From positions 1 through 63,740 of the forward strand of contig VGVZ01000017.1 in the NCBI GenBank assembly GCA_016873805.1: a DNA stretch of 63,740 bases, read 5' to 3'. The notes beneath the pieces are model-generated. The model had not been told where the DNA came from and made no database searches. It saw nothing but the letters and a program-made list of their open reading frames with translations. Below, one piece after another: positions 28,486 to 51,087 of this stretch; the first letter of the stretch is position 1, and each line of letters begins with the position of its first letter. A program made the translations under genes and the position numbers. The stretch comes from Ignavibacteria bacterium. GTDB lineage: Bacteria > Bacteroidota > Ignavibacteria > UBA10030.

Positions 28486-28514
28486 CGAGGAGTCACCAAT
28501 GAAAGGACTCCTCG
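28486..28514 (+). promoter_or_regulatory. Hairpin just before the transposase ATG
   Basis: CGAGGAGTC (28486-28494) pairs with GACTCCTCG (28506-28514) around an 11-base loop and ends one base before the ATG at 28515. Both IS copies keep it. It could hide the ribosome-binding site (GAGGAG) when transcription enters from outside, as known for other insertion sequences; that role is inferred. Confidence 0.5.
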
Positions 28515-30276: not shown

Positions 30277-30368
30277 GATATGATTCTCCCCATGGAAGTG
30301 TTCAATTCAAGAATCAAAATGAAGAACCAAGAAATGTCTCCTTCCTACGTTCCTCTTCTGTTTGCTGT

Positions 30369-31327: not shown

Positions 31328-31335
31328 GATATCCG

Positions 31336-32016: not shown

Positions 32017-32031
32017 TAGGAATTGTCGGAA

Positions 32032-32751: not shown

Positions 32752-32769
32752 TGTTTATCCTCCTTTCAA

Positions 32770-33291: not shown

Positions 33292-33683
33292 TAGAGTCCT
33301 CCTAATAACTTCGACATCATGCATGATACGGGGGGATCAATTAATCAACTGGTCCCCCCGCCATATCATCCACATTCTCTCATGCGTTAGTCGAGATAAT
33401 TCGCTGCGAGGCAGGGAGTCGCTGAGCCTGCGGCATCGGCTGCTGCGGCTTTTCGCATATCGGGTTCCCACACCAACGTTGTTTTGGCCAAACCTGGTTT
33501 CTTCATGATTACTGCAATCTCAATCCAGTTCTTTTGTTCGCTTGCCCAGTACTTGTACGAACTCAAGAAGATCGAACATCCCAATACAACTCTTTCCGAC
33601 TCCCTCCGAAGTGAGTGGGTAGAAGATCAAACATTATTGTCATCAAAGACCCCGTAGCATGCTTGTGATTTCGATCATTAATA
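33292..33683. other. Intergenic stretch with a GC-rich hairpin
   Basis: No convincing gene. GGGGGGATCA at 33330-33339 pairs with TGGTCCCCCC at 33350-33359 (one G-T pair), a strong hairpin 39 bases upstream of the exported-protein start. It may end or attenuate the upstream transcript. A weak small minus-strand frame (33387-33506, 39 residues, no clear ribosome-binding site) is noted but not called. Confidence 0.45.
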
Positions 33684-36348: not shown

Positions 36349-36413
36349 ATGAATCGTCTCGCTCCTTGCGTGCAGTTCTTCAACGCCGTATATTCTTGTC
36401 AGAGGTGTATCAT

Positions 36414-37469
36414 ATGTCCGATGTTTTGACCCTGAAAGATCTCCTCACACAGAACACCCGGGAAGGGGAGCTCTACTCGACGATGCCCGACAACTGGGTC
36501 CGTTGCGTTGCGTGTGGACACCGGTGCAAGATTCCCCCCGGTCGAGACGGTATCTGTCGAGTACGTTTCAACCATGATGGGAAGCTTATGGTCCCTTCCG
36601 GGTATGCCGCGGGCATCGCTCTCGATCCGGTCGAAAAGAAGCCCTTCTTCCATGCCTATCCCGGGGCAAAGGCCCTTAGCTTTGGGATGCTTGGATGCGA
36701 TTATCACTGCAGCTACTGCCAGAACTGGGTCAGCTCACAGGCCCTCCGTGATCCGATTGCCGGCTCGGCACCCGAATATGTCACCCCCGAGCAGTTTGTC
36801 TCCCTCGCAACGAAGCACAACGCCCGCATCGTCACAAGCACCTACAACGAACCCCTGATCACCAGCGAATGGGCCGTCGAAATCTTCAAGCTCGCGAAGC
36901 AGGCGGATCTGATCACGTCATACGTCTCGAATGGGAATGGAACACCCGAGGTTCTCGAATATCTCAAGCCGCATCTCGACCTGTTCAAAATCGATCTCAA
37001 GGGATTTCGTCAAAAACAGTACGCCCAGCTCGGCGGTGTTCTCCAAAACGTTCTCGATACAATCATGCAGGCATATCAGATGGGATTTTGGGTGGAGATT
37101 GTGACGCTCGTCGTCCCCGGATTCAACGATTCCGAGGAAGAGATGCGTGATATTGCGAGGTTCATTCGCTCCGTCTCTCCAGACATCCCGTGGCACGTCA
37201 CCGGCTTTCATCGCGACTATCACATGATGGAGCCCGAGAACACTCCATCCGAGACACTGATCCGTGCCGTAGAGATCGGATACGATGTCGGTCTACATTA
37301 TGTCTACGGCGGAAACAGGCCAGGCGAAATCGGTTCGTACGAGAATACTTACTGCCCCTCTTGTGAAACGACCTTAGTGGAGCGGTGGGGATTTCGCGTT
37401 CTGAGCAACCAAATCAGGGACGGTGCGTGCTCCCACTGCGGCACAACCATCGCTGGACGCTGGCAATAG
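36414..37469 (+). CDS. AmmeMemoRadiSam-system radical SAM enzyme (AmrS-like)
   Basis: A 351-residue radical SAM protein of the PflA-like AmrS group. The cluster motif is CDYHCSYC (Cx3Cx2C) after an N-terminal Cys region (CVACGHRC, GICRVR). Other family parts are FSLATKHN-type TSTYNEPLIT, SYVSNGNG, FKIDLKGF, VVPGFNDSEEEM and the YVYGGNRPG end with two CxxC pairs (CPSC, CSHC). The substrate of the family is not settled. The AmmeMemo partners are not in the window. The ATG at 36414 has AGAGG upstream. Confidence 0.88.
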   Translation: MSDVLTLKDLLTQNTREGELYSTMPDNWVRCVACGHRCKIPPGRDGICRVRFNHDGKLMVPSGYAAGIALDPVEKKPFFHAYPGAKALSFGMLGCDYHCSYCQNWVSSQALRDPIAGSAPEYVTPEQFVSLATKHNARIVTSTYNEPLITSEWAVEIFKLAKQADLITSYVSNGNGTPEVLEYLKPHLDLFKIDLKGFRQKQYAQLGGVLQNVLDTIMQAYQMGFWVEIVTLVVPGFNDSEEEMRDIARFIRSVSPDIPWHVTGFHRDYHMMEPENTPSETLIRAVEIGYDVGLHYVYGGNRPGEIGSYENTYCPSCETTLVERWGFRVLSNQIRDGACSHCGTTIAGRWQ

Positions 37470-37576
37470 GTCAATGGTGATATCGCGACTTTTCCACCCG
37501 CCATGCTGTTTGGCGGGCGTCCCGACACCCCAGAGCTCAAGTTTTCAGGAAACCAATCTCCCATCTTCGGAAAACC

Positions 37577-38383
37577 ATGAAACGAACGACCCTTCTCTGG
37601 ATCCTTGCCGTCATCATTACGATTCCCGTCTCATACTTCCAACGAGTCACCGGCCCAACATATCGACTCGCCGGAAGCGTCACGTTTGATGAGGTTGAAA
37701 TTCCATACCGTCTGGAGCGAAGCCATGGGGGCGAGCAAGACGCCCCCGTGCGAATTCGCACGAGCGATCCGGATATCACGGGAACACTCGAATGGAAGCG
37801 ACACAAGACGCAGGATCCGTGGCGCAAGATCGAGATGCAATTCTCCGAGGGAGAGCTCGTTGCGTATCTCCCTCACCAGCCTCCGGCGGGCAAACTTGAA
37901 TACCGGATTCGGCTCTCACGAGGAGAGAACACTGCGCTCATTCCTCACGATGCGCCGGTGGTGATCCGCTTCAAAGGCGAGATTCCGCCGCAGTATCTCT
38001 ATCCGCATATCCTCGTGATGATCATTGCATTTCTGTTTTCGACGCGCGCCGGTCTCGAATACTTCAGCGGCGAATCGTTGAGGAAAGAATATGTTCTCTG
38101 GACCGTCGGAATGCTTTTCGTCGGCGGACTTGTCCTCGGTCCGGTGGTGCAGTTTTATGCCTTTGACTCTCTCTGGACCGGATGGCCACTCGGCACCGAT
38201 CTTACCGACAACAAAACCGCCGTCGCATTCATCGGATGGCTTGTCGCTGCGCTGGCGATTCGCAAATCCCGAAATCCCAGGAGATGGGTTTTGGGGGCCG
38301 CCCTTCTTGCCATCGCTGTCTACTTGATTCCACACAGTCTCTTCGGCTCGGAACTCGACTACTCGACACTCGATTCACCCTAG
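37577..38383 (+). CDS. Membrane protein with an exported beta domain
   Basis: A 268-residue protein: one N-terminal hydrophobic helix, about 120 residues of beta-rich sequence (VTFDEVEIPYRLERSHGGEQ, KLEYRIRLSRGENTALI), then four hydrophobic segments in the C-terminal half. Glu/Arg-rich strands suggest a periplasmic Ig-like part. It sits between the radical SAM and amidase genes, 32 bases before the latter. Unknown function. Confidence 0.7.
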   Translation: MKRTTLLWILAVIITIPVSYFQRVTGPTYRLAGSVTFDEVEIPYRLERSHGGEQDAPVRIRTSDPDITGTLEWKRHKTQDPWRKIEMQFSEGELVAYLPHQPPAGKLEYRIRLSRGENTALIPHDAPVVIRFKGEIPPQYLYPHILVMIIAFLFSTRAGLEYFSGESLRKEYVLWTVGMLFVGGLVLGPVVQFYAFDSLWTGWPLGTDLTDNKTAVAFIGWLVAALAIRKSRNPRRWVLGAALLAIAVYLIPHSLFGSELDYSTLDSP

Positions 38384-38415
38384 CCGCCCATCAACCATCT
38401 CCTCTGGAGCGACGA

Positions 38416-40089
38416 ATGTACCGCCACCGTTACCTTCTTCCTGCACTGATCTGGCTCTTTGGCACCTTGTTCCTCGTCGGATTCATCTTTCAGGACGCAA
38501 AAAAGGAAAATCAGATTCGCTCTGAGCACGTGCGCAGCGCTGAACGACTTATCGGCCTCGAGTTTTCGGACGCGAAGATTGATTCTGCCCTCGACGGACT
38601 CAACGATCAGCTGAAGAGCTTCGAGAGCGTGCGCACGGTTGCTCTCCCCAATAGCGTTCCTCCGGCCTTCATGTTCAACCCCGTTCCTATCGGCATGACG
38701 TTCGAAAAGACAAAAAAGCCTTTCAAGCGCTCCTCCGTCGGCAATGTCGCCGTGCCACAGAATATCGAGGACGTCGCGTTCCATTCCGTTGCCCAGCTTG
38801 CGGAACTTATTCGAACCAAAAAGATCTCCTCAGAACAGCTCACCCGCATGTACCTCGGCCGGCTGAAGAAATACGGCCCGAAGCTTGAGTGCGTGGTGAC
38901 ACTCACTGAAAATCTCGCTCTCGAGCAGGCGCGTCGGGCCGACAAAGAAATTGCAGCCGGGAAATACCGCGGTCCGCTTCACGGCATTCCGTATGGCGCG
39001 AAAGATCTGCTGGCCGTAAAGGGCTACAAGACCACATGGGGAGCAACGCCGTACAAGGATCAAATGATCGATCAGGATGCGACGGTCATCCGAAAATTGG
39101 AGGAGGCGGGAGCGGTACTCGTCGCGAAGCTCACACTCGGCGCTCTGGCTTGGGGAGATGTGTGGTTCGGAGGCATGACGCGCAATCCATGGAACTACGA
39201 ACAGGGATCAAGCGGCTCTTCCGCGGGGTCGGCCTCGGCAACGGCGGCAGGACTGGTGGCATTCGCGATTGGGAGCGAAACTCATGGATCAATCGTCTCT
39301 CCCTCCGCACGATGCGGCACCACAGGTCTTCGCCCAACGTACGGACGCGTGAGTCGAACCGGTGCCATGGCATTGAGCTGGACAATGGACAAGATCGGAC
39401 CGATTTGCCGGACAGTCGAAGATTGCGCGATCGTCTTCAACGCGATCTACGGTCCGGACGGAATCGACCAGACGCTCTACGATGTTCCATTCAATTATGA
39501 TCCGACGGTGAAGCTGAAAGATCTCCGCATTGGATATTTGAAAACCGAGTTCGACAGTGCGCGTGCCAACAAGCCCTTTAACGACTCGGTTCTCACCGTT
39601 CTCCGACAATTGGGAGCGAATCTGATTCCGATTCAGCTTCCAAAATATCCGACACAAAATCTCTCATTTATACTGAGCGCGGAAGCGGCCGCGGCGTTCG
39701 ACGACCTGACGCGAAGCAACAAAGATGATCTGCTCGTGAGACAAATCAAGAATGCCTGGCCCAATCGATTCCGTATCTCCCGGTTCATTCCGGCCGTGGA
39801 GTACATCCAGGCCAACCGGATTCGCTATCTGATCATTCAGGAGATGCAGAAGTTGATGGAGAAGATTGATCTCTACGTCACACCTTCATTTGGCGGAGAC
39901 AATCTCCTCCTGACAAACCTCACAGGACATCCGTGTGTCGTTCTCCCGCACGGTTTCACCAAAGAGGGGACACCGGTGAGTATCTCTTTCGTGGGGCAGC
40001 TATTCGGTGAAGCAACGCTCCTCGCGGTTGCGAGAACTTTCCAGGTAGCGACCGACTTCCACTTGAAGCATCCGACGTTGCGTGAATGA
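38416..40089 (+). CDS. Amidase-signature family hydrolase, membrane-anchored
   Basis: A 557-residue amidase-signature enzyme with an N-terminal hydrophobic segment (LLPALIWLFGTLFLVGFIF) that would anchor or export it. The Ser-cisSer-Lys triad is present: GAKDLLAVKG (Lys), GSSGSSAGSASATAAG and GSETHGSIVSPSARCGTTGLRPTYG (cis-Ser and Ser). This family hydrolyses amide bonds of many substrates, so the substrate cannot be named. GGAG precedes the ATG at 38416. A gatA role is unlikely because of the long N-terminal region and lack of gatB/C. Confidence 0.88.
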   Translation: MYRHRYLLPALIWLFGTLFLVGFIFQDAKKENQIRSEHVRSAERLIGLEFSDAKIDSALDGLNDQLKSFESVRTVALPNSVPPAFMFNPVPIGMTFEKTKKPFKRSSVGNVAVPQNIEDVAFHSVAQLAELIRTKKISSEQLTRMYLGRLKKYGPKLECVVTLTENLALEQARRADKEIAAGKYRGPLHGIPYGAKDLLAVKGYKTTWGATPYKDQMIDQDATVIRKLEEAGAVLVAKLTLGALAWGDVWFGGMTRNPWNYEQGSSGSSAGSASATAAGLVAFAIGSETHGSIVSPSARCGTTGLRPTYGRVSRTGAMALSWTMDKIGPICRTVEDCAIVFNAIYGPDGIDQTLYDVPFNYDPTVKLKDLRIGYLKTEFDSARANKPFNDSVLTVLRQLGANLIPIQLPKYPTQNLSFILSAEAAAAFDDLTRSNKDDLLVRQIKNAWPNRFRISRFIPAVEYIQANRIRYLIIQEMQKLMEKIDLYVTPSFGGDNLLLTNLTGHPCVVLPHGFTKEGTPVSISFVGQLFGEATLLAVARTFQVATDFHLKHPTLRE

Positions 40090-40317
40090 TCAATCAACAG
40101 CGATACATGAAGCTGATAGCTTGGCTTGCTTGAACGACTGGCCGTGATAGTGAAGAATTCGCACGTATCCTGGTTGTGTGTGTCTCACCGTGGTACAGTG
40201 TGTCCCAAATCGATGCGCCAAATTGATCCATATTGGCTATTTGGTCCGAAAAACAGCGGTTTCTCCTGGCATTCCGGTTGCAGGACTATCATTGGATTTG
40301 ATTTCAAAGGGTAATTT

Positions 40318-40812
40318 ATGAAACGGTTAATGACGATAGGTTTGATTGTGGCGGCGGCGGGACTGCTCATCGTGGAAGAGCTGTCGGCGCAGGCAAGCAC
40401 CAATCAAACCGTCACCGTTTCTGTCGGTGAGGTGTACAAGATCGCAGTCTCCGGAAACCCGGGCGCTCTTTCGATTACCGAAGGGGTCGCCGGCTTGAAC
40501 CAACTGACCTCCGTTTCTGATAACTCGACGACATACGGTATTACACAGAATGTTGCCAATACGGTGAAAATTTCGGCCCAATTGAGTGCAGCGTTGCCGG
40601 CCGGCTTCACGCTCCGGCTTCAGCTTGCAAGCACCAAGGGAACCAGTGCAGGTCTGGTCGACATCTCAAGCGGGAGCTCAGTCGACGTGGTGACCGCCAT
40701 TGCCCGCGGGGCAGATGCCAATCAGACAGTCTCTTATACCTTTAGTGCCACAGCGGACGCTGGCACCCTGGCCCCGACGGTCCGGACAGTCACTCTGACA
40801 CTCACGAATTAA
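40318..40812 (+). CDS. Small exported Ig-like protein 1 (candidate fibre subunit)
   Basis: A 164-residue exported protein (signal ending at LSAQ, AAAGGG before the ATG). The mature part is Ser/Thr/Val-rich beta sequence (VTVSVGEVYKIAVSG, TTYGITQNVANTVKISAQL) ending in SYTFSATADAG and VRTVTLTLTN. The C-terminal strand pattern is shared with the proteins at 41012, 41512 and 46797. It resembles spore-coat-U/DUF4402-type pilin subunits of chaperone-usher systems. A terminator-like hairpin follows. Confidence 0.6.
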   Translation: MKRLMTIGLIVAAAGLLIVEELSAQASTNQTVTVSVGEVYKIAVSGNPGALSITEGVAGLNQLTSVSDNSTTYGITQNVANTVKISAQLSAALPAGFTLRLQLASTKGTSAGLVDISSGSSVDVVTAIARGADANQTVSYTFSATADAGTLAPTVRTVTLTLTN

Positions 40813-40837
40813 TTCCTCCTCGATCGAGGAAATCCGT

Positions 40838-40878
40838 CCGCAGCGAGTATTCGGGAGGGTATTCGCTGCGGATTTTCC
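40838..40878 (+). terminator. Intrinsic terminator after subunit 1
   Basis: CCGCAGCGA (40838-40846) pairs with TCGCTGCGG (40863-40871) and is followed by ATTTTCC. The hairpin starts 25 bases after the stop at 40812. It would let the first subunit be made at a higher level than the downstream genes. Confidence 0.65.
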
Positions 40879-41011
40879 TTCTGGGGCGGAACTTTGAGGT
40901 CTCTTTACGATTCAGGGCTTCCCCCTGGAGGCAAAATCTCCCGGAGGTGTCTGCTTGAATGTGGCACGAAGCAGACGTATATTTAGCTGATAGCGAGGAT
41001 CAACATTTCCC

Positions 41012-41515
41012 ATGATGAAATATCTGTTGCTGGCTCCAAAGATTCTCGGTGCTCAACTCCTGATCTCTGTTTCCGCACCTCAATTCCTCCTCGCACAGAC
41101 TTACGGCACCGACAGCCATTCGGCTTCCGTTACGGTGTCTGAGATCGCCCTTCTTTCAGTTAACACAGGGGTGACACTGAATGTTACGGGTACAGGAACT
41201 CCCGCCGGCCAAGATCTGATGACGGCAACAGATCAATCAAGTACTCTCTGGTGGGGATTGAACGGGACAAGCAAGAAGATCACCGTCAGGACAAACCTCA
41301 CAACTCCTCTCTATAGCTTGAAGGTGGAAGCCGTGTCGCCGACACAGGGTATTCCCGCAAGCACCGTAACAATTAGCACAGCTGCGAAAGACCTCATTAC
41401 CGGATTGGGTCTCAATACGGGAAGTTGTACGTTACTCTATACGGCAGAGGTTTTGGCGTCGGCAGGAACAGGAACAAACACACATACGATTACTTTCACA
41501 GTGCAGAACCAATGA
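41012..41515 (+). CDS. Small exported Ig-like protein 2 (candidate fibre subunit)
   Basis: A 167-residue protein with signal peptide ending at LLAQ. The mature part is beta-rich (SASVTVSEIALLSVNTGVTL, KKITVRTNLTTPLYSLKV) and ends LLYTAEVLASAG then THTITFTVQNQ, matching the end of subunit 1. Its stop overlaps the next start (ATGA, 41512-41515), so translation is coupled. A fimbrial subunit role is inferred from the chaperone- and usher-like neighbours. Confidence 0.6.
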   Translation: MMKYLLLAPKILGAQLLISVSAPQFLLAQTYGTDSHSASVTVSEIALLSVNTGVTLNVTGTGTPAGQDLMTATDQSSTLWWGLNGTSKKITVRTNLTTPLYSLKVEAVSPTQGIPASTVTISTAAKDLITGLGLNTGSCTLLYTAEVLASAGTGTNTHTITFTVQNQ

Positions 41516-41994
41516 ACTCTCTTCGGTTGATACGCATCACTGAGATGATTTGCACGCGGATCCCCGTTGGTGCACTCGTTGTCATATTCTTCACGGTGAG
41601 CAGCGGGACATCCTATGCACAATTAAACCTCACTGGAAATGGGAACACGACAATCAATTCGGCACTCCCGGGTGGCCAACCCAATGACGCACAAAACGAG
41701 ACCTCACGGTTAAGAATACGACGACAAGCCGGTGTCATCACCAAGGTCACAGTCGCGACATATTGCCCGGGACAGAAGTTCTCGCTGAGAGCGCTTGCTA
41801 CTGGCAACGAGGATGGCGTACCTGCTCCAGAGGTCATCCTGGTGCACAACGCGCCTGCTGTTAATTTCTTGGTGAATATCCCGGCGGGCTCGGCGCAGTT
41901 TCGCACTAGAATTCGGTACACTGCTTCGGCTACCTATAATCAGGGGACAGGCATTGATCCTCACACAGTGACGTACACCTTGGTCGCACAATAA
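41512..41994 (+). CDS. Small exported Ig-like protein 3 (candidate fibre subunit)
   Basis: A 160-residue protein. The ATG at 41512 lies inside the preceding stop; an N-terminal hydrophobic stretch (IPVGALVVIFFTVSSGTSYAQ) is a signal peptide with a rather long basic front. The mature part is beta-rich and ends RIRYTASATYNQGTG then HTVTYTLVAQ, the same C-terminal pattern as its neighbours. It is the most divergent of the four small proteins and could be a tip or adaptor subunit; that is a guess. Confidence 0.55.
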   Translation: MNSLRLIRITEMICTRIPVGALVVIFFTVSSGTSYAQLNLTGNGNTTINSALPGGQPNDAQNETSRLRIRRQAGVITKVTVATYCPGQKFSLRALATGNEDGVPAPEVILVHNAPAVNFLVNIPAGSAQFRTRIRYTASATYNQGTGIDPHTVTYTLVAQ

Positions 41995-42004
41995 GGACTC
42001 CGAC

Positions 42005-42823
42005 ATGATGAAACCTCCCGTGATTGTCCCCCTCCTTTTCGTGTTTCCACTATCCCTTGCAGTTGCCCAGATCGCCGTCATCGGTGAGTTGAGTCAGGAA
42101 CGGGATGTCTCTCCCGGGATGACATACGACGGAACGATCGTGGTCAGAAACGACCTCGACGAGCCGCAGGAGGCGAAGATTTATCAAACCGATTATCTCT
42201 TCCGGTTTGACGGCACCAATGAATACGGCGAACCGGGAACTGCACCCCGTTCAAACGCCCCCTGGATTACCTTTAACCCGTCGTATCTCGTCGTCCCTCC
42301 CCGCTCAACAGCAACAGTGAACTACAATGTGGTCGTCCCTCAAACATGGAAGGGATCAGCGCTCCGAGGGACATACTGGAGTATGCTGATGGTCGAAGGA
42401 ATCCCGAAGGGATCTCCTGAATCGGCAGTTCGTCGTCCGGGGACGCGTGCACAGATGGGCATTCAGCAGACGATCCGCTACGGAATCCAGATTGTGTCCC
42501 ACATCGAAAACACGGGCAGCGCGGATATCGCGTTCATTGGCTCCCAGCTCATTGCGCGGGATGATGGAAGCCGGGTCCTTCAGGTCGATATCGAAAACAA
42601 GGGAGACCGAGCCATTCGGCCCGATGTGTTTGTCGAGCTTTTCGACGAGGGGGGAGCGGCTCACGGCAAGTTCTCCGGCGTTCGCTCGCGGATCTACCCA
42701 GGCACTTCGATTCGCCAATCCATTCTCTTGACAAACGTCCCGAAAGGCACGTACAGAGCACTCGTCGTCGTCGATTCCGGCGGTGATGACGTCGTGGCGG
42801 CTCAATACACACTCAAGTTCTAA
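42005..42823 (+). CDS. Pilus-assembly-chaperone-like periplasmic protein
   Basis: A 272-residue exported protein (signal ending at AVAQ) with two Ig-like halves. The first has IVVRNDLDEPQEAKIYQTDY, APWITFNPSYLVVPPRSTAT and VNYNVVVPQTWKGSALRGTY, the order of strands in PapD-like chaperones and related DUF916-like folds. The second half has VLQVDIENKGDRAIRPDVFV. It lies 10 bases after subunit 3 and 27 before the usher-like gene, as in chaperone-usher operons. The classical PapD Arg/Lys pair is not confidently identified. Confidence 0.6.
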   Translation: MMKPPVIVPLLFVFPLSLAVAQIAVIGELSQERDVSPGMTYDGTIVVRNDLDEPQEAKIYQTDYLFRFDGTNEYGEPGTAPRSNAPWITFNPSYLVVPPRSTATVNYNVVVPQTWKGSALRGTYWSMLMVEGIPKGSPESAVRRPGTRAQMGIQQTIRYGIQIVSHIENTGSADIAFIGSQLIARDDGSRVLQVDIENKGDRAIRPDVFVELFDEGGAAHGKFSGVRSRIYPGTSIRQSILLTNVPKGTYRALVVVDSGGDDVVAAQYTLKF

Positions 42824-42850
42824 CTCGCACAAATTCGATCACCCCGCCAG

Positions 42851-45800
42851 TTGAACCCTGTGCACCGACGCCCGATCATACTAGGCTGGCTGCTACTGGC
42901 GATCACACCGTGGTCGACGTTTGCCTATCAGACTCCGCAATTCGATATTTCTGTCGTTACGCCCGTTCCTGTATTCATTCTCCCCGGACAGATTGTCACG
43001 CTTTCCTTCAGCACAAGCAATCGGACCGGCCAGGACCGGGATGTGGTACCGATGATTCTCCTTCCGGAAGGATGGCGCTCGTTCACTCGTCATCAGCCGA
43101 TCAGCGCGAAACCCTTCGAATCGAACTCCTGGATTTCCACGCTTCGCGTTCCAGCCAATGCACAGGCCGGCATCTATCGGATCACTATCCGGCTCACCGA
43201 TCCAGCACAGACAACGACTCTCGCCGAAACGATTGTCCCGGTGACCATAGAACGCGTTCTGAGCATGGGTCTTCAGCATCTCACCTCACCCCGATTTGTA
43301 AGTGCGGGGAGCCGGTACATCTCTGAGTTTCTCCTCTCCAACAACGGGAACACGGAAATCGACGTCCGTATGCGTCCCAGCGGAATGAGCGGATTCCCCA
43401 CGACCGTGACCCCGGCTGTGCTCCGACTGAAGCCGCAGGAATCCCAGACCGTGCGGCTGGAGGTTACCACCCCGGATACCCTGCGCTCCTCGATACGCTA
43501 TATCGTCGAGCTCCTGGCCATAAACAGTGCCGATACCACGAACAAGGCGAGCAACGCAAGCATGGTTGATGTCATCCCCGCGGTCGGCGCCAATGTGATT
43601 CTGTATCACCGGCTCCCGATGAATCTCACCGTCAGGGGTGTTGCCCAGAAGGATCGTTATGGCGGTCAGCTTGAATTCCTCGGTGAAGGCTCCCTCTCCG
43701 ATCGGCTGACCGATCAGCTTGCGTTCCGTTTCCGAGGCCCAAATACCCAGCGGACGTCAGTCCTCGGTCAGTATGACGAGTATCGTCTCGCCTATTCAAG
43801 GTCGGGCCTTAACGTCCGCCTCGGTGATCATCCGTTTCTTCTGACACCCCTGACCGAATATGGAAGGTATGCCTTCGGGGCCGGCGCAGATGTCGACTTT
43901 TCGAGATTCACCTTCGGAGGATTCTCCAACAGGACCCGCTGGACAGATCCCGCGCAAGACGAACGTGCGGGATTCCTTCGATACAACTTCTCCACGGAAT
44001 CCTCGATTGGTCTGCACTATCTCGGCAAGCGCGAAGACAAGAACGCCGAACTCGGCTCGGTCCGAGGGCTGTTTCAGCCGCTGCCGAGGACCATTCTGGA
44101 TGTCGAATACGGACAAAGCGAGCGTGAGTCCCACAGAGATGAGGGGTACTCGGTTCGGCTCAGAACTCAGCAACCCTGGATGAACTTTGATCTGTGGTAC
44201 TTCCGGGTAGGTCCACACTATGGAGGATACTATCGCGATATTGATCACAAATCAGCATCCGTGAATATCTATCCCCTCTCCTTAATCCGACTCGAAGCAT
44301 CGTACCGGGAAGAGTATCGAAATCTTCTCAAGGACACCGTGCAGTTCAGCGCGCCGCGTGATCGATTCATGCAGTTCGGCATCGCATATGGAAGCTACGG
44401 GGCGCTCTTCTACCGGCAATCTGCACAGAAAGACCTTCTCCCCCTGACCAGGGCAGACAGTCGAGAGGATCTCATTCAACTCCGCCTTGGGCACTATTTC
44501 GACGGTGTCAGCGCGACGGCTTTTGCCGAAACGGGTCAGTTGCATGACCAGCTCCTTCGCCGTCGTTATCCGTTCCATCGGCTGTTTAGTTCCCTCAACC
44601 TCCGACCATTCAACGGCCATAGCTACACACTCGCCGGCGACTATTTCAAAGGACGTAATCTCTATACTGACGAACTCCAGGAACGCCTTTCATTCAATTT
44701 CTCCGCCTGGATTCTTCTCGGCCGCTCGACATTCATCGGTTCGACTGTGAACGTCAACAGAATCACCGGGGAATTTCGGCACAGAAGCATTCATGCCGAC
44801 CTGTCGCTCGAGCAATACATTTTCTCCGGTCACCGTCTCGCCGCGAGGGGAAGGATAAGCAGGTTTTCTCCGCGTGTCATCGAAGGGGAATCGGCGGTGA
44901 TGCTTGAATATAGCATTCCAATCGGATTTCCCATCGCACGCGTTGGAACAACGGGACAGATTCGCGGCCGTATCACGCGCGCCGAATCCAATACCGGTCT
45001 CCGCAACGCTCTCGTCTTTGTTGGACCGGCAAGCAGTCTGACGGATGCAGACGGTCAGTACAATTTTCCATCTCTTCTTCCCGGAGAATACTACCTCACA
45101 CTCGACCGATCCAGCATCGGCCTCGATCATGTGACTACTGTTCCTGTCCCGGTAAAGATTGATGTCGCGGGTGGATCTGAAAAGCGGCTCGATCTCAGCG
45201 TTGTCAAGTCCGCCACGATCGAGGGAACAATCCTTCGGTACGCCGGCCCCGAAACGTATGATACAACACGGACGGAACAGCGGTTGGTGGGTGGTCATGT
45301 CGGCGCAGTGCTCGAACTCCGAAGCGACGCCGAGGAATTTCGTCGCGTCAGTGACAACCGCGGAAGATTTCTCTTCACCGATTTGCGCCCGGGAAGCTAC
45401 GAGCTGATCGTGGCGGAGGGCAATCTTCCGGAGTTCACCGTGTTCGAAAAGGACAGATTCGATCTTACCCTTTCCCCGAATGAAAATCTCAAGCTCCAGC
45501 TCAAAGTCATTCCGAGACGCAGAACCCTCCGTATTGTAGAATCCGGTGAACTCGTTCAGCGACCGGGAAGAGTAGTTGCGAGAGCGACTCAGCCCGAGAG
45601 ACGACCCACACAACCGGTTATTGTCGAAACCTCTCCAACTATCCAGCCGGCACCGGTCCAGGCACCACCGCCGGATCGACCAGCCGGGCCTCCATCGCCG
45701 GCTGTTGCCGATCCCACCGTCTGCCGGATATTCCCGAATTCCGATCATACGGGATTCACGTTGCAGCTCTCTTCATGGCGATCTCAGACACAGGCACAAA

Positions 45801-46507
45801 AACTCGCGCGTGAGGCAGAACGAATCTCGGGATACCGTTCCTACGTGGAACGGGCAGTGATCCCCGGACGCGGAACATGGTATCGGGTTCAGCTCATTAA
45901 TTTTACCTCCGAAGAAACCGCGGCTGAGGTATGTATCAGGCTCACCGGTGCATCAGCTCCGGAACCCACGGCGACACCCGTACCGACACCGGTTACCGCG
46001 CCGGTATCGGCGGCCGTCGATTCTTCACAGTGCCAGATATCCCCGAGCGCTGATGGGGTCGGTTATACCGTGCGGTTGTCGATGTGGAGATCGCGAGAAA
46101 GAGCCGAGGAGGCAGCAGCCGAAGCACAGCGGCTTTCTTTGTATCCTGCGCGTGTTGAGGAATCGACTGATCCAGTGCGAGGAAGACGGTATATGGTGCA
46201 GCTCATCCACGTCCGCACCCGCTCCATCGCTGAACAAATCTGTGCAAAGCTTCGCGGCACACCCCCGTCTCGAGCTCCACTACCGTCGGCAACACCGAGC
46301 AAAGAAATCCAGGTCTCTTCGTGGAAGACGCGAGAAAAAGCGGATCAGGTCGCTTCGCGGATCCACGAGGCTTTCGGGTACACCGTCAAGATTGAAGAGG
46401 TCTATATTCCCGGCTTGGGGAAGAGGTACCGGGTGTTTTTGGCTGGTTTCGCATCAGAATCAGAAGCCCAATCAGCTTCCCGGCGCGTTCAGGAGCTTTT
46501 CCGCTAG
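42851..46507 (+). CDS. Usher-like outer-membrane protein with three SPOR-like repeats
   Basis: A 1218-residue exported protein. The signal ends near TFAYQ. Two Ig/NEW3-like domains follow (about 28-240), then a long strand-rich part (about 245-700; YDEYRLAYSRSGLNVRLGDH, TILDVEYGQSERESH, YTLAGDYFKG) typical of an outer-membrane barrel. Next come two carboxypeptidase-regulatory-like domains (about 705-890; IRGRITRAESNTGLRNALVF, LTDADGQYNFPSLLPGEYYL), a Pro-rich linker, and three SPOR-like repeats in the last 260 residues (GFTLQLSSWRSQTQAQKLA, GYTVRLSMWRSRERAEEAA, EIQVSSWKTREKADQVA). SPOR domains bind denuded peptidoglycan. The start is TTG at 42851 or GTG at 42860. Usher function is inferred from gene order. 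Confidence 0.6.
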   Translation: MNPVHRRPIILGWLLLAITPWSTFAYQTPQFDISVVTPVPVFILPGQIVTLSFSTSNRTGQDRDVVPMILLPEGWRSFTRHQPISAKPFESNSWISTLRVPANAQAGIYRITIRLTDPAQTTTLAETIVPVTIERVLSMGLQHLTSPRFVSAGSRYISEFLLSNNGNTEIDVRMRPSGMSGFPTTVTPAVLRLKPQESQTVRLEVTTPDTLRSSIRYIVELLAINSADTTNKASNASMVDVIPAVGANVILYHRLPMNLTVRGVAQKDRYGGQLEFLGEGSLSDRLTDQLAFRFRGPNTQRTSVLGQYDEYRLAYSRSGLNVRLGDHPFLLTPLTEYGRYAFGAGADVDFSRFTFGGFSNRTRWTDPAQDERAGFLRYNFSTESSIGLHYLGKREDKNAELGSVRGLFQPLPRTILDVEYGQSERESHRDEGYSVRLRTQQPWMNFDLWYFRVGPHYGGYYRDIDHKSASVNIYPLSLIRLEASYREEYRNLLKDTVQFSAPRDRFMQFGIAYGSYGALFYRQSAQKDLLPLTRADSREDLIQLRLGHYFDGVSATAFAETGQLHDQLLRRRYPFHRLFSSLNLRPFNGHSYTLAGDYFKGRNLYTDELQERLSFNFSAWILLGRSTFIGSTVNVNRITGEFRHRSIHADLSLEQYIFSGHRLAARGRISRFSPRVIEGESAVMLEYSIPIGFPIARVGTTGQIRGRITRAESNTGLRNALVFVGPASSLTDADGQYNFPSLLPGEYYLTLDRSSIGLDHVTTVPVPVKIDVAGGSEKRLDLSVVKSATIEGTILRYAGPETYDTTRTEQRLVGGHVGAVLELRSDAEEFRRVSDNRGRFLFTDLRPGSYELIVAEGNLPEFTVFEKDRFDLTLSPNENLKLQLKVIPRRRTLRIVESGELVQRPGRVVARATQPERRPTQPVIVETSPTIQPAPVQAPPPDRPAGPPSPAVADPTVCRIFPNSDHTGFTLQLSSWRSQTQAQKLAREAERISGYRSYVERAVIPGRGTWYRVQLINFTSEETAAEVCIRLTGASAPEPTATPVPTPVTAPVSAAVDSSQCQISPSADGVGYTVRLSMWRSRERAEEAAAEAQRLSLYPARVEESTDPVRGRRYMVQLIHVRTRSIAEQICAKLRGTPPSRAPLPSATPSKEIQVSSWKTREKADQVASRIHEAFGYTVKIEEVYIPGLGKRYRVFLAGFASESEAQSASRRVQELFR

Positions 46508-46719
46508 ATTCCCCCAATTTCATCGATTTTCGCGAAACCCTTCATGCACTCGCCGCCGATTGTAGAATGTGCTCTGTTTCGTTATGCGAGCGGCCTGTGA
46601 TGACCCGAGCATCTCAGCTAAGTTGTTTGGTAACAAGTAATTATTAGGAATGAGGATTTTATAGATCGATAACGGTCGTGGTACCTTGTTTGAGGGAAGG
46701 GACTTCGAGGGAGAAAAAA
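46508..46719. other. Spacer before subunit 4
   Basis: AT-richer sequence without a gene. It probably holds the promoter of the uORF/subunit 4 unit; a clear box pair was not identified upstream of 46720. Confidence 0.3.
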
Positions 46720-46800
46720 ATGAGATCGGGAAACCTTGACACTATCGGTGCAATTGCCGAACTTTGTGAGAATCCCTACAAGTCAGGAGGGATACGGTGA
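46720..46800 (+). CDS. Possible 26-codon leader ORF coupled to subunit 4
   Basis: ATG at 46720, preceded by GAGGGAG at eight bases, opens MRSGNLDTIGAIAELCENPY and ends in TGA at 46798-46800. The stop overlaps the GTG start of the next gene (GTGA). It could couple or attenuate translation. It may instead be chance, since a TTGACA-like promoter box (46736-46741) lies inside it. Confidence 0.3.
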   Translation: MRSGNLDTIGAIAELCENPYKSGGIR

Positions 46801-47288
46801 AGTTGGTTCCGCGTTGCATCGTGGTGACGTTAGTGATGGTTACGTGGGTGGTGTTGCATGTCCATGCACAGCACTCGGCCTACCAGACTATCACGTTCGA
46901 AGTAAAGCCCATCACAAAGATCCACGTCTCCGCGAATCCCCAACCGCTCGTGATCGATCGAAATGTGTCTGGCGATGGCGACGTCACGATTCTTGACAAC
47001 GCGACCCGCTACAGCATCCTCACAAACCAGAATGACATGAAGATTGTTGCTTCGATCGATCATCCGATGCCCGATGGAACGCGTCTCCTTCTTGCTGCCG
47101 CGTCCTCGGCTGGAATCAGTCGAGGCACCGTTGACCTTTCCGGAGCGACAGCGCCGGTTGAAATGGTTTCTTCAATCCAACGCGGCATCGACCGGGACCA
47201 ATCCCTCTCCTACATGCTCGTAGCCGACGCGAGCATCCAGAAGCTTGATCGCCAATCCCGACTCGTCACTCTGACGATCACGAACTGA
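46797..47288 (+). CDS. Small exported Ig-like protein 4 (candidate fibre subunit)
   Basis: A 163-residue protein with GTG start (AGGAGGG upstream) and signal ending at VHAQ. It is the closest relative of subunit 1: ITFEVKPITKIHVSANPQPL, TRYSILTNQNDMKIVASID, GISRGTVDLSGATAPVEMV, then SLSYMLVADASIQ and LVTLTITN, aligning through the length with GTSAGLVDISSGSSVDVV and TVTLTLTN. It lies downstream of the usher-like gene, separated by 289 bases, so it may be expressed on its own. Confidence 0.62.
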   Translation: MKLVPRCIVVTLVMVTWVVLHVHAQHSAYQTITFEVKPITKIHVSANPQPLVIDRNVSGDGDVTILDNATRYSILTNQNDMKIVASIDHPMPDGTRLLLAAASSAGISRGTVDLSGATAPVEMVSSIQRGIDRDQSLSYMLVADASIQKLDRQSRLVTLTITN

Positions 47289-47301
47289 TTTCCTTTCCCA
47301 C

Positions 47302-49005
47302 TTATCGTGTAAACTCCATCGCAGCGGGATCAACATATCGTTTTGTGATCCGGACGTTGATGTAGAACTGTTCCTCCGCAACGCGGAATTCGTCTGGATG
47401 CATATCCTCCAGAACAACGTTCTTCCATTCCGTTGTCGGGACAAGCGTTTCCAGTTTTCCTCGCGCCATCGTCACCCGAACCGGCATTCGAAAATCGGCC
47501 CTACCGGCCTGCCACCGGTACCTCATCGTCACGCGTTCACCTCGTTTCACCAGAGAAATCTCGAGAAGTGGAATGGCGCTCGTCTTGAAGTACTGATCGA
47601 AGAAATATTTCAGGTCCATACTGGATTTGCGACTAATGTACCCAAAGACGTCCTCCGCCGTCACCGTGTGATACTTGAACTCTTCTGCCAATCCCCGAAC
47701 GATCCGGAACCAGAGCGCATCGTTGCCGATCACGTGCCGGAGAGTGTTCAGGACAAGCTGACCCTTGTCGTACATGTCCCTCGATCCCTCCTTGTTCACG
47801 CCGTACACACCGATAATCGGCTGCTGGTTCCCAATATTCCCTTTCTTTCCGTTCACGTACTTGATCGCCTCCTCATATCCGTACAGACACTCGACGTAGA
47901 GCGCTTCTGCGTATGCACCGAAGCTCTCATGAATCCACATATCGCCAATATCCTTCGACGTCACACTATTTCCCCACCACTCGTGGGCCGCTTCGTGGAT
48001 GAGGATGAAGTCGAACTTCACTCCGACTTCCGACGATGACGTTCCGCGATATCCCTGAAGATAGTTGTTGCCATAGGCGAGTGCGCTCTGGTGTTCCATG
48101 CCGAGATGTGGAGATTCGATTTGTTTAAACCCGTCTCTGATAAATGGATACGGGCCGAAGTAACGCTCGAAGCAGGCAAGCATCGGCTTGATCTGCTGAA
48201 ACTGTCTCTTTGCCTTTTCGAGATTCTCGGGAAGAACATAATAGTCGAGCGTCAGCATATCGGAACCGCTCATGTAGAGATCGGAAAAGTGGGCATACCT
48301 GCCGATGTTGACCGTGACGTTGTAGTTGTTGATCGGATAGCTGATGAACCAATCGCTTCGAGTCCATCCATCGGCCAGTGTCTGGGTCTTCCGCAAGCGC
48401 CCGTTTGAGATATTCATCAGACCGGGGGGAACCGTGACGCTGAGGAGCATGCTGTCCGGTTCGTCCGACTGATGCTCTTTGGTGGGCCACCAGAGACTCG
48501 CACCGGTTCCCTGGCACGTCACCGCAACCCATGGATTTCCCTCTTTGTCTTTCGACCAGACAAATCCTCCTTCCCAAGGAGGCCGCCGCGCAACAATCGG
48601 ACTGCCTGAATAGTACACAGTGATTTCCCGCACTTGATGTTTCGTCAATTTCCGCGGGAAGTCAACGAACACGGCATCAAACTCTCGTTTGAACGCAAGC
48701 GCCGTCTTATCATCGAGCGCGATGCGCTCAATCTTCATGTTCTCAAACAGGTCGATCTGAATGCGCAAGAGGTCTTCAACCACGCGGAATCTGATCTTGT
48801 TCGATCCACTGAGATATCGTTCAGCCGGATCGATACGCACATCGAGGTGATAGTACACGATGTCGTATGCCGTGCGGAGCGGCGTAAGACCGCCCCGGAG
48901 ACTGTCTTTGCGCGTGAACTGCAGATCCTTGGCATCGTGGAGCAGCTGAGCTCCAGCGTACACTGGCACAAGCAGACCGACGATGAGCCAGATGATGTTC
49001 CTCAT
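47302..49005 (-). CDS. M1-family metallopeptidase
   Basis: A 567-residue exported gluzincin (signal ending at AGAQ). Zinc site HEAAHEWWGN (H337, E338, H341) with the third ligand E360 in WIHESFG; the exopeptidase GxMEN-type motif is LGMEHQS. The N-terminal beta domain is typical, and the C-terminal HEAT-like domain of larger aminopeptidases is absent, as in many Bacteroidota M1 proteins. It is probably a periplasmic aminopeptidase. AAAGGAA precedes the ATG at 49005. It is convergent with subunit 4. Confidence 0.9.
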   Translation of the reverse strand: MRNIIWLIVGLLVPVYAGAQLLHDAKDLQFTRKDSLRGGLTPLRTAYDIVYYHLDVRIDPAERYLSGSNKIRFRVVEDLLRIQIDLFENMKIERIALDDKTALAFKREFDAVFVDFPRKLTKHQVREITVYYSGSPIVARRPPWEGGFVWSKDKEGNPWVAVTCQGTGASLWWPTKEHQSDEPDSMLLSVTVPPGLMNISNGRLRKTQTLADGWTRSDWFISYPINNYNVTVNIGRYAHFSDLYMSGSDMLTLDYYVLPENLEKAKRQFQQIKPMLACFERYFGPYPFIRDGFKQIESPHLGMEHQSALAYGNNYLQGYRGTSSSEVGVKFDFILIHEAAHEWWGNSVTSKDIGDMWIHESFGAYAEALYVECLYGYEEAIKYVNGKKGNIGNQQPIIGVYGVNKEGSRDMYDKGQLVLNTLRHVIGNDALWFRIVRGLAEEFKYHTVTAEDVFGYISRKSSMDLKYFFDQYFKTSAIPLLEISLVKRGERVTMRYRWQAGRADFRMPVRVTMARGKLETLVPTTEWKNVVLEDMHPDEFRVAEEQFYINVRITKRYVDPAAMEFTR

Positions 49006-49050
49006 TGTGAGTATTCCTTTCCTGAATGTCATCCCACAGTTCATGTTCCC

Positions 49051-50100
49051 TTATTGAAGGAGAAATCCATTGCGCAACGGATCGTTCGGATCGACAAGAA
49101 ACTCATGACGACCCGTGATAAACGCATTTCCCTCGATACGCGGTACAACCGCATCAAACGATCCTACGTTTCCAATCTCCTCTACCCACCCTGTGAAGCG
49201 ACTGCCGGTGATACTCTCCACCACGATCGGTTCGTGTTGTTTCAACTCTCCCTTTTTGAAATGGATGGCCAACCGTCCGCTCACGCCTGTCCCGGTGGGC
49301 GAGCGATCCACTTGTCCGTCGGCGAAGATGCACACGTTTCTACTGTGAACCGCCGGATCATGTGACGCGGCAACGAAGATCGTCCCGTAGAGGAATCCGA
49401 GGTCGGCGTCGATCGGATGGGTGATGGTTCGTTGATCCATTATTGCGCGCTTGATCGCCATTCCATGCCTGATAAGGAGATCCGTTTCTTGCGAATCACA
49501 ACGTAATCCAACATCCGAAGCGGCGACGTATGCGTAGTATGCTCCCCCAAAAGCAAGATCAAATCTCACATCTCCCAAACCCGGGACTGCAACGATTTCA
49601 TCAAGCGTTACCACAAACGATGGAACGTTCGCAAACGAAACGCTTCCGATCATTCCATCCCTCACGTGCACAGAAGATCTCACCAATCCCGCCGGCGTAT
49701 CGATCCGTATCATCGTTTCGGGTTCCGTCGGCGAGACCAATCCGGTTTTCACCGCGACCATGGAAACCGCGATGATCCCATGCCCGCACATTGTGCTGTA
49801 CCCTTCTGCATGGGTGAAGAGTACTCCGAAGTCGGATCCCGGCGCAACTGGAGGAACGATGATGCAGCCGTACATGTCACGATGTCCCCGCGGCTCAAGC
49901 ATGATTGCTTTTCGGAGATGATCGTATCTCAGCTGGGCATCGCGGCGCTTCTCGAGAATTGTGCTCCCGTTCAGTTCCGGAAACCCATCAATCACAATTC
50001 TTAGCGGCTCCCCGCCGGTATGTGCGTCAAGGGTGGCGATTCTGAGCCAGTGTGATGGAGGATTCCACGACCTCATTCTCGTAATGTCGCGATCGTTCAT
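49051..50100 (-). CDS. Trans-3-hydroxy-L-proline dehydratase-like protein (proline racemase family)
   Basis: A 349-residue proline-racemase-family enzyme. The first active-site Cys is in STMCGHGII (C105), but the second is replaced by Thr in VDRSPTGTGVSGR (T269). In characterised members a Cys/Thr pair marks trans-3-hydroxy-L-proline dehydratase, which gives pyrroline-2-carboxylate, while Cys/Cys marks racemases and 4-hydroxyproline epimerases. The length is as expected. No pyrroline reductase or proline catabolic gene is adjacent; it lies next to the M1 peptidase, so peptide use is a possible link. Confidence 0.85.
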   Translation of the reverse strand: MNDRDITRMRSWNPPSHWLRIATLDAHTGGEPLRIVIDGFPELNGSTILEKRRDAQLRYDHLRKAIMLEPRGHRDMYGCIIVPPVAPGSDFGVLFTHAEGYSTMCGHGIIAVSMVAVKTGLVSPTEPETMIRIDTPAGLVRSSVHVRDGMIGSVSFANVPSFVVTLDEIVAVPGLGDVRFDLAFGGAYYAYVAASDVGLRCDSQETDLLIRHGMAIKRAIMDQRTITHPIDADLGFLYGTIFVAASHDPAVHSRNVCIFADGQVDRSPTGTGVSGRLAIHFKKGELKQHEPIVVESITGSRFTGWVEEIGNVGSFDAVVPRIEGNAFITGRHEFLVDPNDPLRNGFLLQ

Positions 50101-50181
50101 CTGGAAACCTGTCGTGGCGGGTACTGCACCGTGTTGATAAGCAAGGAATCGGTGGGGCGCTGGACCGATGCCGCATCACGC

Positions 50182-51021
50182 TCAGCGTTGCGATCCGGCA
50201 TTGACACTCTGTTCAAGCGTAATCCTCTCTCTGCTGGGAACAACTGTCATCACAAAGACCTCTTCGAGTCTGGTGAAATCGACGCTGGGCTCGATGATGA
50301 TCTGCTTGAAAAGAGAGCCGGCTTCGCTCGATACTTCTTTCACAAGGCCCACCCTGATGCCGGGAGGATAGGTGCTGCTGTATGTAGAGGTAATGACGAG
50401 ATCGCCCGTTTGGACATCATGCGTTTTCGGAACGTTCGTCAGGAGAAGGTTTGTTCCGTCCCACGCGAGAATTCCATCGACCCGTGAGCGCTGGATCTTC
50501 ACGCTGGCGCGGAATTCCACGTTCAGGAGAATGTTCACAACGGAAAAGTATGGCGTGGCGCCGACAACGATGCCGACGAGGCCCGCGTCGCTCACCACAG
50601 GCATGGAGGGAGCGATGCCGTCTTTGGTTCCGACATTCAGTGTGAGGGTATTGCGCATCAGGAGAAGGTGTTTGCCGATAATTTCCGCCGCGCGATAGCC
50701 GTACTCGGGCGGCCTCTTCATCTCGAGCAGGTTCCGAAGTCTTGCCGCTTCCAGCTTTGCTTCCCGGAGCCGACTCGCCTCATCCGCCAGCTCGATATTC
50801 ATGCGGCGGAGCAGTTCGTTCTCTTCGCGCAGGCGCAGATAGCGCGGGACAAATGCGATCTGGTTCTGGATCACTCCGAGCGCGACGCTCGATACGGACC
50901 GGAGAAACCGAACCTGTCGATTATCGTTTTGTGAAAGGAGAACGAGGGAAACCACAAGAAGAAGAGCGAGGATGACGTACTCTTTGAATTGCAGAAGAAG
51001 AGTGTAGAGGCGATCAAGCAT
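50182..51021 (-). CDS. mreC: Rod shape-determining protein MreC
   Basis: A 279-residue MreC: N-terminal helix (VILALLLVVSLVLLS), coiled coil (REENELLRRMNIELADEASRLREAK) and the two-barrel periplasmic domain (GTKDGIAPSMPVVSDAGLVGIVVGA, GDLVITSTYSSTYPPGIRVGLVKEV). It scaffolds the elongation machinery with MreB. It lies 66 bases after mreB. The expected mreD and PBP2 genes do not follow; the next gene is the hydroxyproline dehydratase. Confidence 0.93.
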   Translation of the reverse strand: MLDRLYTLLLQFKEYVILALLLVVSLVLLSQNDNRQVRFLRSVSSVALGVIQNQIAFVPRYLRLREENELLRRMNIELADEASRLREAKLEAARLRNLLEMKRPPEYGYRAAEIIGKHLLLMRNTLTLNVGTKDGIAPSMPVVSDAGLVGIVVGATPYFSVVNILLNVEFRASVKIQRSRVDGILAWDGTNLLLTNVPKTHDVQTGDLVITSTYSSTYPPGIRVGLVKEVSSEAGSLFKQIIIEPSVDFTRLEEVFVMTVVPSRERITLEQSVNAGSQR

Positions 51022-51087
51022 GGGAAATGAATGCTCTCAGACTTCCATCGTGGGAGCGTCCGTACCGGATTGCGGACGCGCCGCGTC

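Follow-up and report, generated by a model that had tools for sequence, protein, structure and literature searches.

Can a system that builds fibres in the manner of the chaperone-usher pathway lie beyond the reach of the sequence models that describe that pathway? This question is raised by a six-gene locus at positions 40318 to 47288 of a 63,740-nucleotide stretch of DNA from an Ignavibacteria bacterium (assembly GCA_016873805.1, contig VGVZ01000017.1, forward strand; the whole stretch is termed the window herein). The locus encodes four small exported proteins (termed subunits 1 to 4), a chaperone-like protein, and a 1,218-amino-acid outer-membrane protein (termed the platform). We consider it likely that the locus specifies a sequence-divergent, plug-less, wall-tethered fibre-assembly system that works like the chaperone-usher pathway and has been missed by sequence models. 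An earlier note, made from the letters alone, had called the locus usher-like. That description holds for the PapD fold, the barrel, FimD as the best whole-chain match, and the conserved gene set, and fails at the level of sequence families, as the Pfam models for usher and PapD were not reached.

Gene content of the locus

Open reading frame (ORF) calls confirmed all six reported genes between 40318 and 47288:

40318..40812, plus strand: subunit 1 (ORF, 164 amino acids), an exported beta-rich protein with the C terminus TVTLTLTN and no Pfam match
41012..41515, plus strand: subunit 2 (ORF, 167 amino acids), no Pfam match, with relatives at the equal operon position
41512..41994, plus strand: subunit 3 (ORF, 160 amino acids), with relatives at the equal position and a sub-threshold GEVED match only
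42005..42823, plus strand: chaperone-like protein with a predicted PapD/WxLIP fold (272 amino acids; AlphaFold2, Foldseek, VIA-align)
42851..46507, plus strand: platform (usher-like) protein (ORF, 1,218 amino acids, TTG start; AlphaFold2 of residues 25 to 905)
46797..47288, plus strand: subunit 4 (ORF, 163 amino acids, GTG start), kept behind the platform in relatives

The ATG of subunit 3 overlaps the stop codon of subunit 2 by 4 bases (the TTG start at 41425 in the ORF list lies earlier), and only 10 bases separate subunit 3 from the chaperone gene and 27 bases the chaperone gene from the platform gene; therefore, these four genes are probably expressed as a single transcript. Wider gaps lie between subunits 1 and 2 (199 bases) and between the platform and subunit 4 (289 bases). 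Signal peptides of the window proteins were assigned by eye. Pfam gave no match above the cut-off in the five proteins other than the platform, NCBIfam gave none above the cut-off for any of the six, and Rfam gave no match in the window.

The chaperone-like protein

The PapD-like chaperone proposed in the earlier note is borne out by the predicted fold. The AlphaFold2 model, built from an alignment of 35 sequences (the window protein and those from 34 of the 47 related loci described below), shows a two-domain PapD fold with a predicted local distance difference test score (pLDDT) of 93.3 and a predicted template modeling score (pTM) of 0.84. Among solved structures, WxLIP of Enterococcus faecium comes closest (Foldseek, 4.3e-13; VIA-align Z score, 16.7; root mean square deviation [rmsd], 6.3; 228 residues). 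Many chaperones of chaperone-usher systems match as well (Foldseek E values from 4e-10 to 2e-7; Z scores of 10 to 13), among them CfaA (VIA-align Z score, 12.9), FimC (12.5), CsuC (11.7), and PapD (10.5). In sequence searches, PapD_N matched 1 of 35 chaperone relatives (E = 0.0051). WxLIP_PGBD and WxLIP_HBD had no match for the window chaperone; WxLIP_PGBD matched 15 of 35 chaperones weakly and exceeded its cut-off in the distant relative L094 (32.2 bits versus 27.3). According to the strand list, the model ends in beta strands, with no C-terminal helix.

A candidate for the strand that would be lent to subunits is found in the middle of the protein:

42455..42478, plus strand: proposed chaperone donor-strand motif (residues 151 to 158; hydrophobic 151 and 153, invariant Arg158)

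Residue conservation was counted in the window protein and those from 39 of the 47 loci (missing were L042, L043, L044, L065, L079, L080, L081, and the partial L085). Position 151 is hydrophobic in 39 of 40 chaperones, and position 153 is hydrophobic and Arg158 present in all 40. The invariant residues include Q61, R82, S83, N84, W87, P112, G122, W125, S126, and E131, followed by R158, Y159, Q162, N198, P232, and D257; 29 of 39 have a basic residue at position 33. In Caf1M, Ile134 is the first donor position and Lys139 the carboxylate anchor, according to passages of PMC4654587. The spacing from 153 to 158 is the same, a classical-type fit in sequence pattern. By analogy, strand donation would fit both structural neighbours, WxLIP and the pilus chaperones. 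Natural chaperone-subunit fusions were also looked for; none was found, the long chaperone ORFs having early starts only.

The platform protein

Pfam recognized an NPCBM/NEW3 domain, two CarboxypepD_reg stretches, and three SPOR stretches (SPOR E value, 2.6e-25) in the platform. AlphaFold2 modeling of residues 25 to 905 with 40 sequences (mean pLDDT, 90.2; pTM, 0.62) gave, by the strand list, two Ig-like domains, 26 consecutive strands, and two beta domains in this order:

42941..43249, plus strand: Ig-like domain 1, NPCBM/NEW3 (residues ~31 to 133; Pfam and strand list)
43265..43576, plus strand: Ig-like domain 2 (residues ~139 to 242; strand list and sub-threshold matches to Ig families)
43604..44941, plus strand: predicted beta barrel of ~26 strands with no inserted domain (residues ~252 to 697; strand list, barrel matches, insertion scan)
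44954..45244, plus strand: C-terminal domain 1, CarboxypepD_reg-like (Pfam and strand list)
45281..45514, plus strand: C-terminal domain 2, CarboxypepD_reg/SpaA-like (Pfam and strand list)

The large strand-rich outer-membrane barrel, the Ig/NEW3-like front, and the two carboxypeptidase-regulatory-like domains behind it, all read from the letters by the earlier note, were recovered here, with barrel closure taken from structural matches rather than from model coordinates. The alignment comprised the window platform and 39 relatives; the pieces from L052, L056, and L073 (5 of 44 platform ORFs) were excluded, and the truncated rows L043, L044, L050, L054, and L079 were kept. Platform genes lie in two frames at L052:1122-3916, L073:10842-13705, and L074:10739-13446, through sequencing errors or decay.

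Against solved structures, the whole platform chain matches FimD best (Foldseek E value, 4.1e-14) and also PapC (4.7e-11), and the first barrel in the list that is not an usher appears at 1.6e-6. In VIA-align, the barrel gives Z scores of 16.9 with FimD and 16.7 with PapC; no row spans the front domains, so these comparisons have no bearing on their fold. Six of 40 platforms match CooC_C, a family that represents the C terminus of alternative ushers (best E value, 1.3e-5, among the matches listed), and EcpC itself has a CarboxypepD_reg match below the cut-off. PF00577 (Usher) was not among the 25 of 63 Pfam families listed for the 40 platforms, and none of the 98 genomes searched in the order had an usher of this family, with the E. 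coli control detected. A TonB-dependent receptor was considered and rejected, since the platform has its CarboxypepD_reg domains after the barrel and no plug.

The subunits

The C-terminal motif that the earlier note had described for the four small exported proteins is real. Because it recurs in relatives from other phyla, the shared ending is not due to chance. The subunit alignment (n = 92) was made from 131 flanking ORFs, reduced to 84 by an end-motif filter, edited by eye, and joined with the four window subunits; since this filter favours the motif, the alignment is no proof of it. Subunit 1 shares 29 to 41% identity with ten rows from other lineages. A second subunit type precedes the chaperone gene in Deltaproteobacteria, Spirochaetales, and others, with endings such as YSTTVVFTVVD, and hhalign links it to the window type (E = 4.4e-6). 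In related clusters of other Bacteroidota, the endings are like GSYTGTFSVTFAY or GTYTQTVTYTATAL; the window type resembles the distant Bacteroidota subunits ending in GTYTQTVTYTATAL (hhalign E values, 3.3e-8 in the C-terminal part and 6.1e-6). No Pfam family matches more than 2 of the 92 subunits. DUF4402-type subunits gave no meaningful hhalign alignment with the window type or the other types, and a search of five genomes for SCPU pilins gave no match, nor did its controls, and hence is uninformative.

Short genes (97 to 152 amino acids) lie behind subunit 4 at L039:14583-15041, L045:7218-7568, and L049:13322-13615. They have a strand-like start and a TITE- or TVTE-type ending and keep little of the middle; possibly, they encode a chain terminator or anchor. 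The window has no short extra gene after subunit 4.

Putative wall-binding tails

Behind the second C-terminal domain, the platform continues into a tail:

45518..45742, plus strand: proline-rich linker (~75 residues; sequence)
45743..45949, plus strand: SPOR repeat 1 (residues 965 to 1033; Pfam SPOR, limits by local profile)
46055..46255, plus strand: SPOR repeat 2 (residues 1069 to 1135; Pfam SPOR, local profile)
46307..46495, plus strand: SPOR repeat 3 (residues 1153 to 1215; Pfam SPOR, local profile)

The three SPOR-like repeats of the earlier note are genuine: on the tail alone, Pfam SPOR scores 95.3 bits (cut-off, 21; E = 2.8e-27) in three stretches. The local profile that set the repeat limits was built partly from the window platform itself. 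SPOR domains are characterized by binding to peptidoglycan that is free of stem peptides. SPOR or LysM tails also occur in further lineages. We scanned the window tail and 19 of the 22 relatives' tails of at least 60 residues (the proline-rich tails of L058, L067, and L071 were excluded). SPOR was above the cut-off in 10 of these 19 (L041, L042, L045, L046 [two], L047, L049, L051, L060, L053, and L082), with two SPOR stretches in the Desulfobacteraceae platform L053 (1.6e-32) and a score barely above the cut-off in L082 (Prolixibacteraceae). LysM was above the cut-off in 3 of 19, all from metagenome-assembled genomes, namely, L072 and L076 (Rhodothermia by title) and L077 (Bacteroidetes by title), and the L057 and L084 tails had SPOR matches below the cut-off. 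The distant platform L099 again carries SPOR, in three stretches. Judged by the distribution of these domains, a peptidoglycan tether was probably gained repeatedly. The even number of predicted barrel strands would place the tail in the periplasm.

Distribution in other genomes

A platform search of 61 genomes (the window's own included) gave a match in 47; in many of them it reached only SPOR or CarboxypepD_reg, both common domains. Strong matches taking in the barrel (E ≤ 2.2e-64) came from 18 genomes besides the window's own: 17 are among the 31 other members of its family, and one, G049, belongs to another family of the order. Where contigs allow, the gene order in the family is subunit 1 (one to four copies), subunit 2 (one or two copies), subunit 3, chaperone, platform, and subunit 4, with a short extra gene in 8 of 18 family loci and, in L027, an opposite-strand gene between the platform and subunit 4.

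With the chaperone alignment as query, 47 loci were found in named genomes. Platform ORFs were found in 42 of them (44 ORFs) by blastp with the window platform alone; by profile, the platform is present in 45 of 47 and subunits in 46 of 47, the profiles being made from the same loci and the counts therefore partly circular. By title, the 47 loci span about ten phyla: Ignavibacteria and other Bacteroidota (including Rhodothermia and Prolixibacteraceae), Deltaproteobacteria of several groups, Spirochaetales, Zixibacteria, Riflebacteria, Planctomycetota, Elusimicrobia, Nitrospirae, Armatimonadetes, Gamma- and Betaproteobacteria, and one Clostridia metagenome-assembled genome. The cluster of this Clostridia-titled genome is closely like those of two other bacteria (L069, L066, L068), which is probably a binning error. 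In L071, the platform precedes the chaperone.

Within the phylum, the chaperone profile matched 37 of 296 genomes, and weaker matches led to more distant clusters. In G007, a member of the window's family, DUF4402-type subunits stand in front of a related chaperone and a 1,272-amino-acid SPOR-ended platform, with a window-type subunit 4 behind (L118:5288-14413); judged by its gene content, this mixed cluster links the DUF4402-type and window-type systems. A distant cluster at L099:7387-12658 holds a DUF4402 subunit, a chaperone, and a 1,237-amino-acid platform. In the distant Bacteroidota clusters L094:3914-12600, L095, and L105, repeated subunits are followed by a chaperone, a platform of ~934 amino acids, and a protein of ~477 amino acids, which could be a tip adhesin.

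Points against the reading and alternative explanations

Several results weigh against a system that works like the chaperone-usher pathway. Neither PapD_N (PF00345) for the window chaperone nor Usher (PF00577) for the window platform had a match at E ≤ 1. hhalign found nothing in a shallow test (six or one sequences) against six E. coli FimC-type chaperones and EcpB, and, in a shallow, single-sequence test against E. coli EcpC and FimD, only one EcpC C-terminal domain (E = 0.015). Among solved pilins, the subunits matched CsuA/B at E = 5.7 only, which is not significant, and narrower subunit sets matched no solved structure or, at E = 0.54, an unrelated protein. According to PMC4654587, archaic and alternative chaperones are marked by an arginine in strand F; this residue has no counterpart here, positions 123 to 131 being free of basic residues in 40 chaperones. 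In the structural comparisons, the FimD match to the platform has TM-scores of only ~0.3, Ig-rich ciliary chains score between FimD and PapC in Foldseek, and the barrel alone fits chain B of the Mtr complex best (VIA-align Z score, 21.1; rmsd, 4.5; 412 residues), with the OccK3 porin (Z score, 16.2) tied with the ushers. No insertion of at least 25 residues interrupts the barrel in the 40 aligned platforms (5 truncated). Finally, 17 of 39 relatives have no tail that reaches 60 residues (truncated sequences in 5 cases), and among the 19 scanned tails, four (L039, L040, L061, and L062; the L040 tail stops at the contig end) lack any SPOR or LysM match, even a weak one.

Because neither the family models nor the comparisons with E. 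coli chaperones and ushers gave a positive result, the relation to the chaperone-usher pathway is one of predicted structure, and we reject the window proteins as members of the usher or PapD sequence families, whose models were not reached. As modeled, the barrel alone is not usher-specific; domain order and gene partners single out the usher. As no gap between strands of the modeled barrel exceeds 13 residues and the alignment holds no insertion of the size given above, the usher-type plug appears to be absent as far as the 40 sequences reach. The 24-strand barrel with a plug that the earlier note had expected is replaced in the model by ~26 strands and no plug. Since those models were not reached and the plug is absent, we do not place the system in the usher or PapD families, although by fold and gene set it works like a chaperone-usher system. 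The most fitting description is that of a new branch, widely spread, in which the peptidoglycan tether is optional. Given the relatives without a tail and the tails without SPOR or LysM, the wall-binding tail seems to have been added recurrently and to lie outside the core.

The nearness of the chaperone fold to WxLIP, the weak WxLIP_PGBD matches, and the match above the cut-off in L094 suit another explanation, in which the chaperone-like protein is a WxLIP-type holder in a stable subunit complex and the platform exports or anchors an Ig-like coat, with no strand-exchange polymerisation. According to PMC10599100, AlphaFold2 predicts that WxLIP, a lasting partner of WxL, fills a gap in the latter with a strand, which agrees with such a holder; the same paper gives WxLIP a C-terminal membrane helix, whereas the window chaperone ends in beta strands. 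WxLIP also differs in having no outer-membrane barrel partner, and Pfam found no WxL domain in the window proteins. At this locus, there is one chaperone and one large barrel, of usher-like domain order, for several subunits, and we regard the holder as rather unlikely.

The barrel matches could instead indicate a porin of the outer membrane, MtrB-like or general, that carries Ig and wall-binding domains, the small proteins being unrelated surface proteins; chain B of the Mtr complex, a porin-cytochrome complex, is presumably MtrB, which forms a 26-strand barrel (~26 strands are predicted here), and OccK porins equal the ushers. However, no ORF of at least 120 amino acids with two CxxCH motifs occurs in window positions 36001 to 52000 or in five other loci, and the MtrB-like porin is rejected for this want of haem-protein ORFs nearby. 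Chaperone, subunits, and barrel occur together in 45 of 47 loci, and C-terminal domains lie behind the barrel, as in ushers, making a porin of either kind highly improbable. The least probable of the alternatives, to which we give very little weight, is an ordinary, merely diverged chaperone-usher system in which the missing plug and the SPOR tail are functionally meaningless. Folds and gene set do agree with the known pathway, and the CooC_C and EcpC matches point the same way. Yet none of the 40 rows has a plug-sized insertion, two Ig-like domains stand in front of ~26 strands, and unrelated wall-binding families, SPOR and LysM, occupy the equal position in different lineages.

Compared with the classical chaperone-usher systems (FimC/FimD, PapD/PapC, Caf1M), the locus shares a two-domain PapD-fold chaperone with subunit genes around it, a large barrel followed by two C-terminal domains, and, in sequence pattern, a proposed hydrophobic donor position with a basic residue five places further on; it differs in lacking a sequence-family match and a plug, in having ~26 rather than 24 predicted strands, and in its two Ig-like front domains and SPOR tail. 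With the alternative and archaic pili (CfaA, EcpB/EcpC, CsuC), it shares the high rank of CfaA and CsuC among the chaperone matches and, with EcpC, C-terminal domains of the CarboxypepD_reg/CooC_C type; unlike them, it has no strand-F arginine and no TcfC plug-like domain in the barrel, and EcpB and the EcpC barrel show no significant similarity to the window proteins. YeeJ-type inverse autotransporters are single polypeptides and, to our knowledge, have neither a chaperone nor separate subunits. They resemble the platform as outer-membrane surface-structure proteins that also bind peptidoglycan, there via LysM, according to sections of PMC5595812. A non-exhaustive literature search (open papers, no preprints) found no described platform of this kind and none that joins chaperone-usher and SPOR.

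Proposed mechanism and implications

For the fibre-assembly system that we favour, we propose the following secretion route, strand exchange, fibre formation, wall binding, and load bearing. Subunits would enter the periplasm, where the chaperone would hold each of them by lending its G1 strand (hydrophobic 151 and 153), with Arg158 binding the subunit C terminus. The chaperone-subunit complex would dock on the Ig-like front domains of the 1,218-amino-acid platform, and the subunit would pass through the ~26-strand barrel, which has no inserted plug. The N-terminal strand of the next subunit would then replace the chaperone strand, so that the chain grows, while the two C-terminal platform domains would hold its base. 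As an even number of strands would leave both ends of the barrel in the periplasm, the proline-rich linker and the three SPOR repeats would fasten the platform to peptidoglycan, and the wall would carry the load on the fibre.

A wider reading, which we put somewhat below an even chance, is that of a deep, undescribed strand-donating branch over about ten diderm phyla, with a chaperone nearer to WxLIP than to PapD, a plug-less and otherwise gated usher, and repeated SPOR or LysM fastening; it would unite WxL surface complexes and chaperone-usher pili into one superfamily. Through the WxLIP likeness, it becomes possible to test whether the strand-donating systems of Gram-positive and Gram-negative bacteria share an origin.

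In a 2016 survey (PMC4827864), the known usher family is placed in Proteobacteria, Spirochaetes, Cyanobacteria, and Deinococcus-Thermus. If our reading is true, a relative of the usher missed by sequence models is present in many other phyla, large sets of unannotated small exported proteins would gain a role, and the locus would exemplify a fibre platform anchored to the cell wall. The plug occludes PapC, as PMC4356140 states; an usher able to work without one would be implied here. Two of the loci are in the strain-named Thiocapsa marina 5811 and Thiococcus pfennigii, so tests are possible without uncultured hosts.

Regulatory sites and neighbouring genes

A possible promoter precedes the locus:

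40266..40282, plus strand: possible sigma54-type promoter, 35 bases before subunit 1 (score, 15 of 18)

This score was reached by 8 of 200 shuffles, so the window site is weak on its own. Across 17 stretches upstream of subunit genes, the score of the sigma54-type site was reached by at most 2 of 200 mononucleotide shuffles in 8. Such sites (e.g., TTGGCAC-N5-TTGA) were seen before subunit genes in L039, L049, L050, L063, L053, L055, and L075, those in the first four beginning 69 to 79 bases before the end of the scanned stretch. ORFs of ~460 amino acids that resemble sigma54-type response regulators (named by eye) adjoin the cluster in several relatives. On contig C30 of the window's own genome, two further subunit genes (L093:2860-3384 and 3701-4165) adjoin response-regulator-like and kinase-like ORFs, which relatives carry beside the main cluster; the system seems to be split over contigs in this genome.

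Elsewhere in the window, mreC-like and mreB-like ORFs lie 3 kb downstream of the locus on the opposite strand (50182 to 52113), probably by chance. Positions 27397 to 33684 hold no ORF of at least 250 amino acids, G+C is lower towards the end of the stretch, and a 308-amino-acid ORF at 62744 to 63670 resembles, by eye, a tyrosine recombinase.

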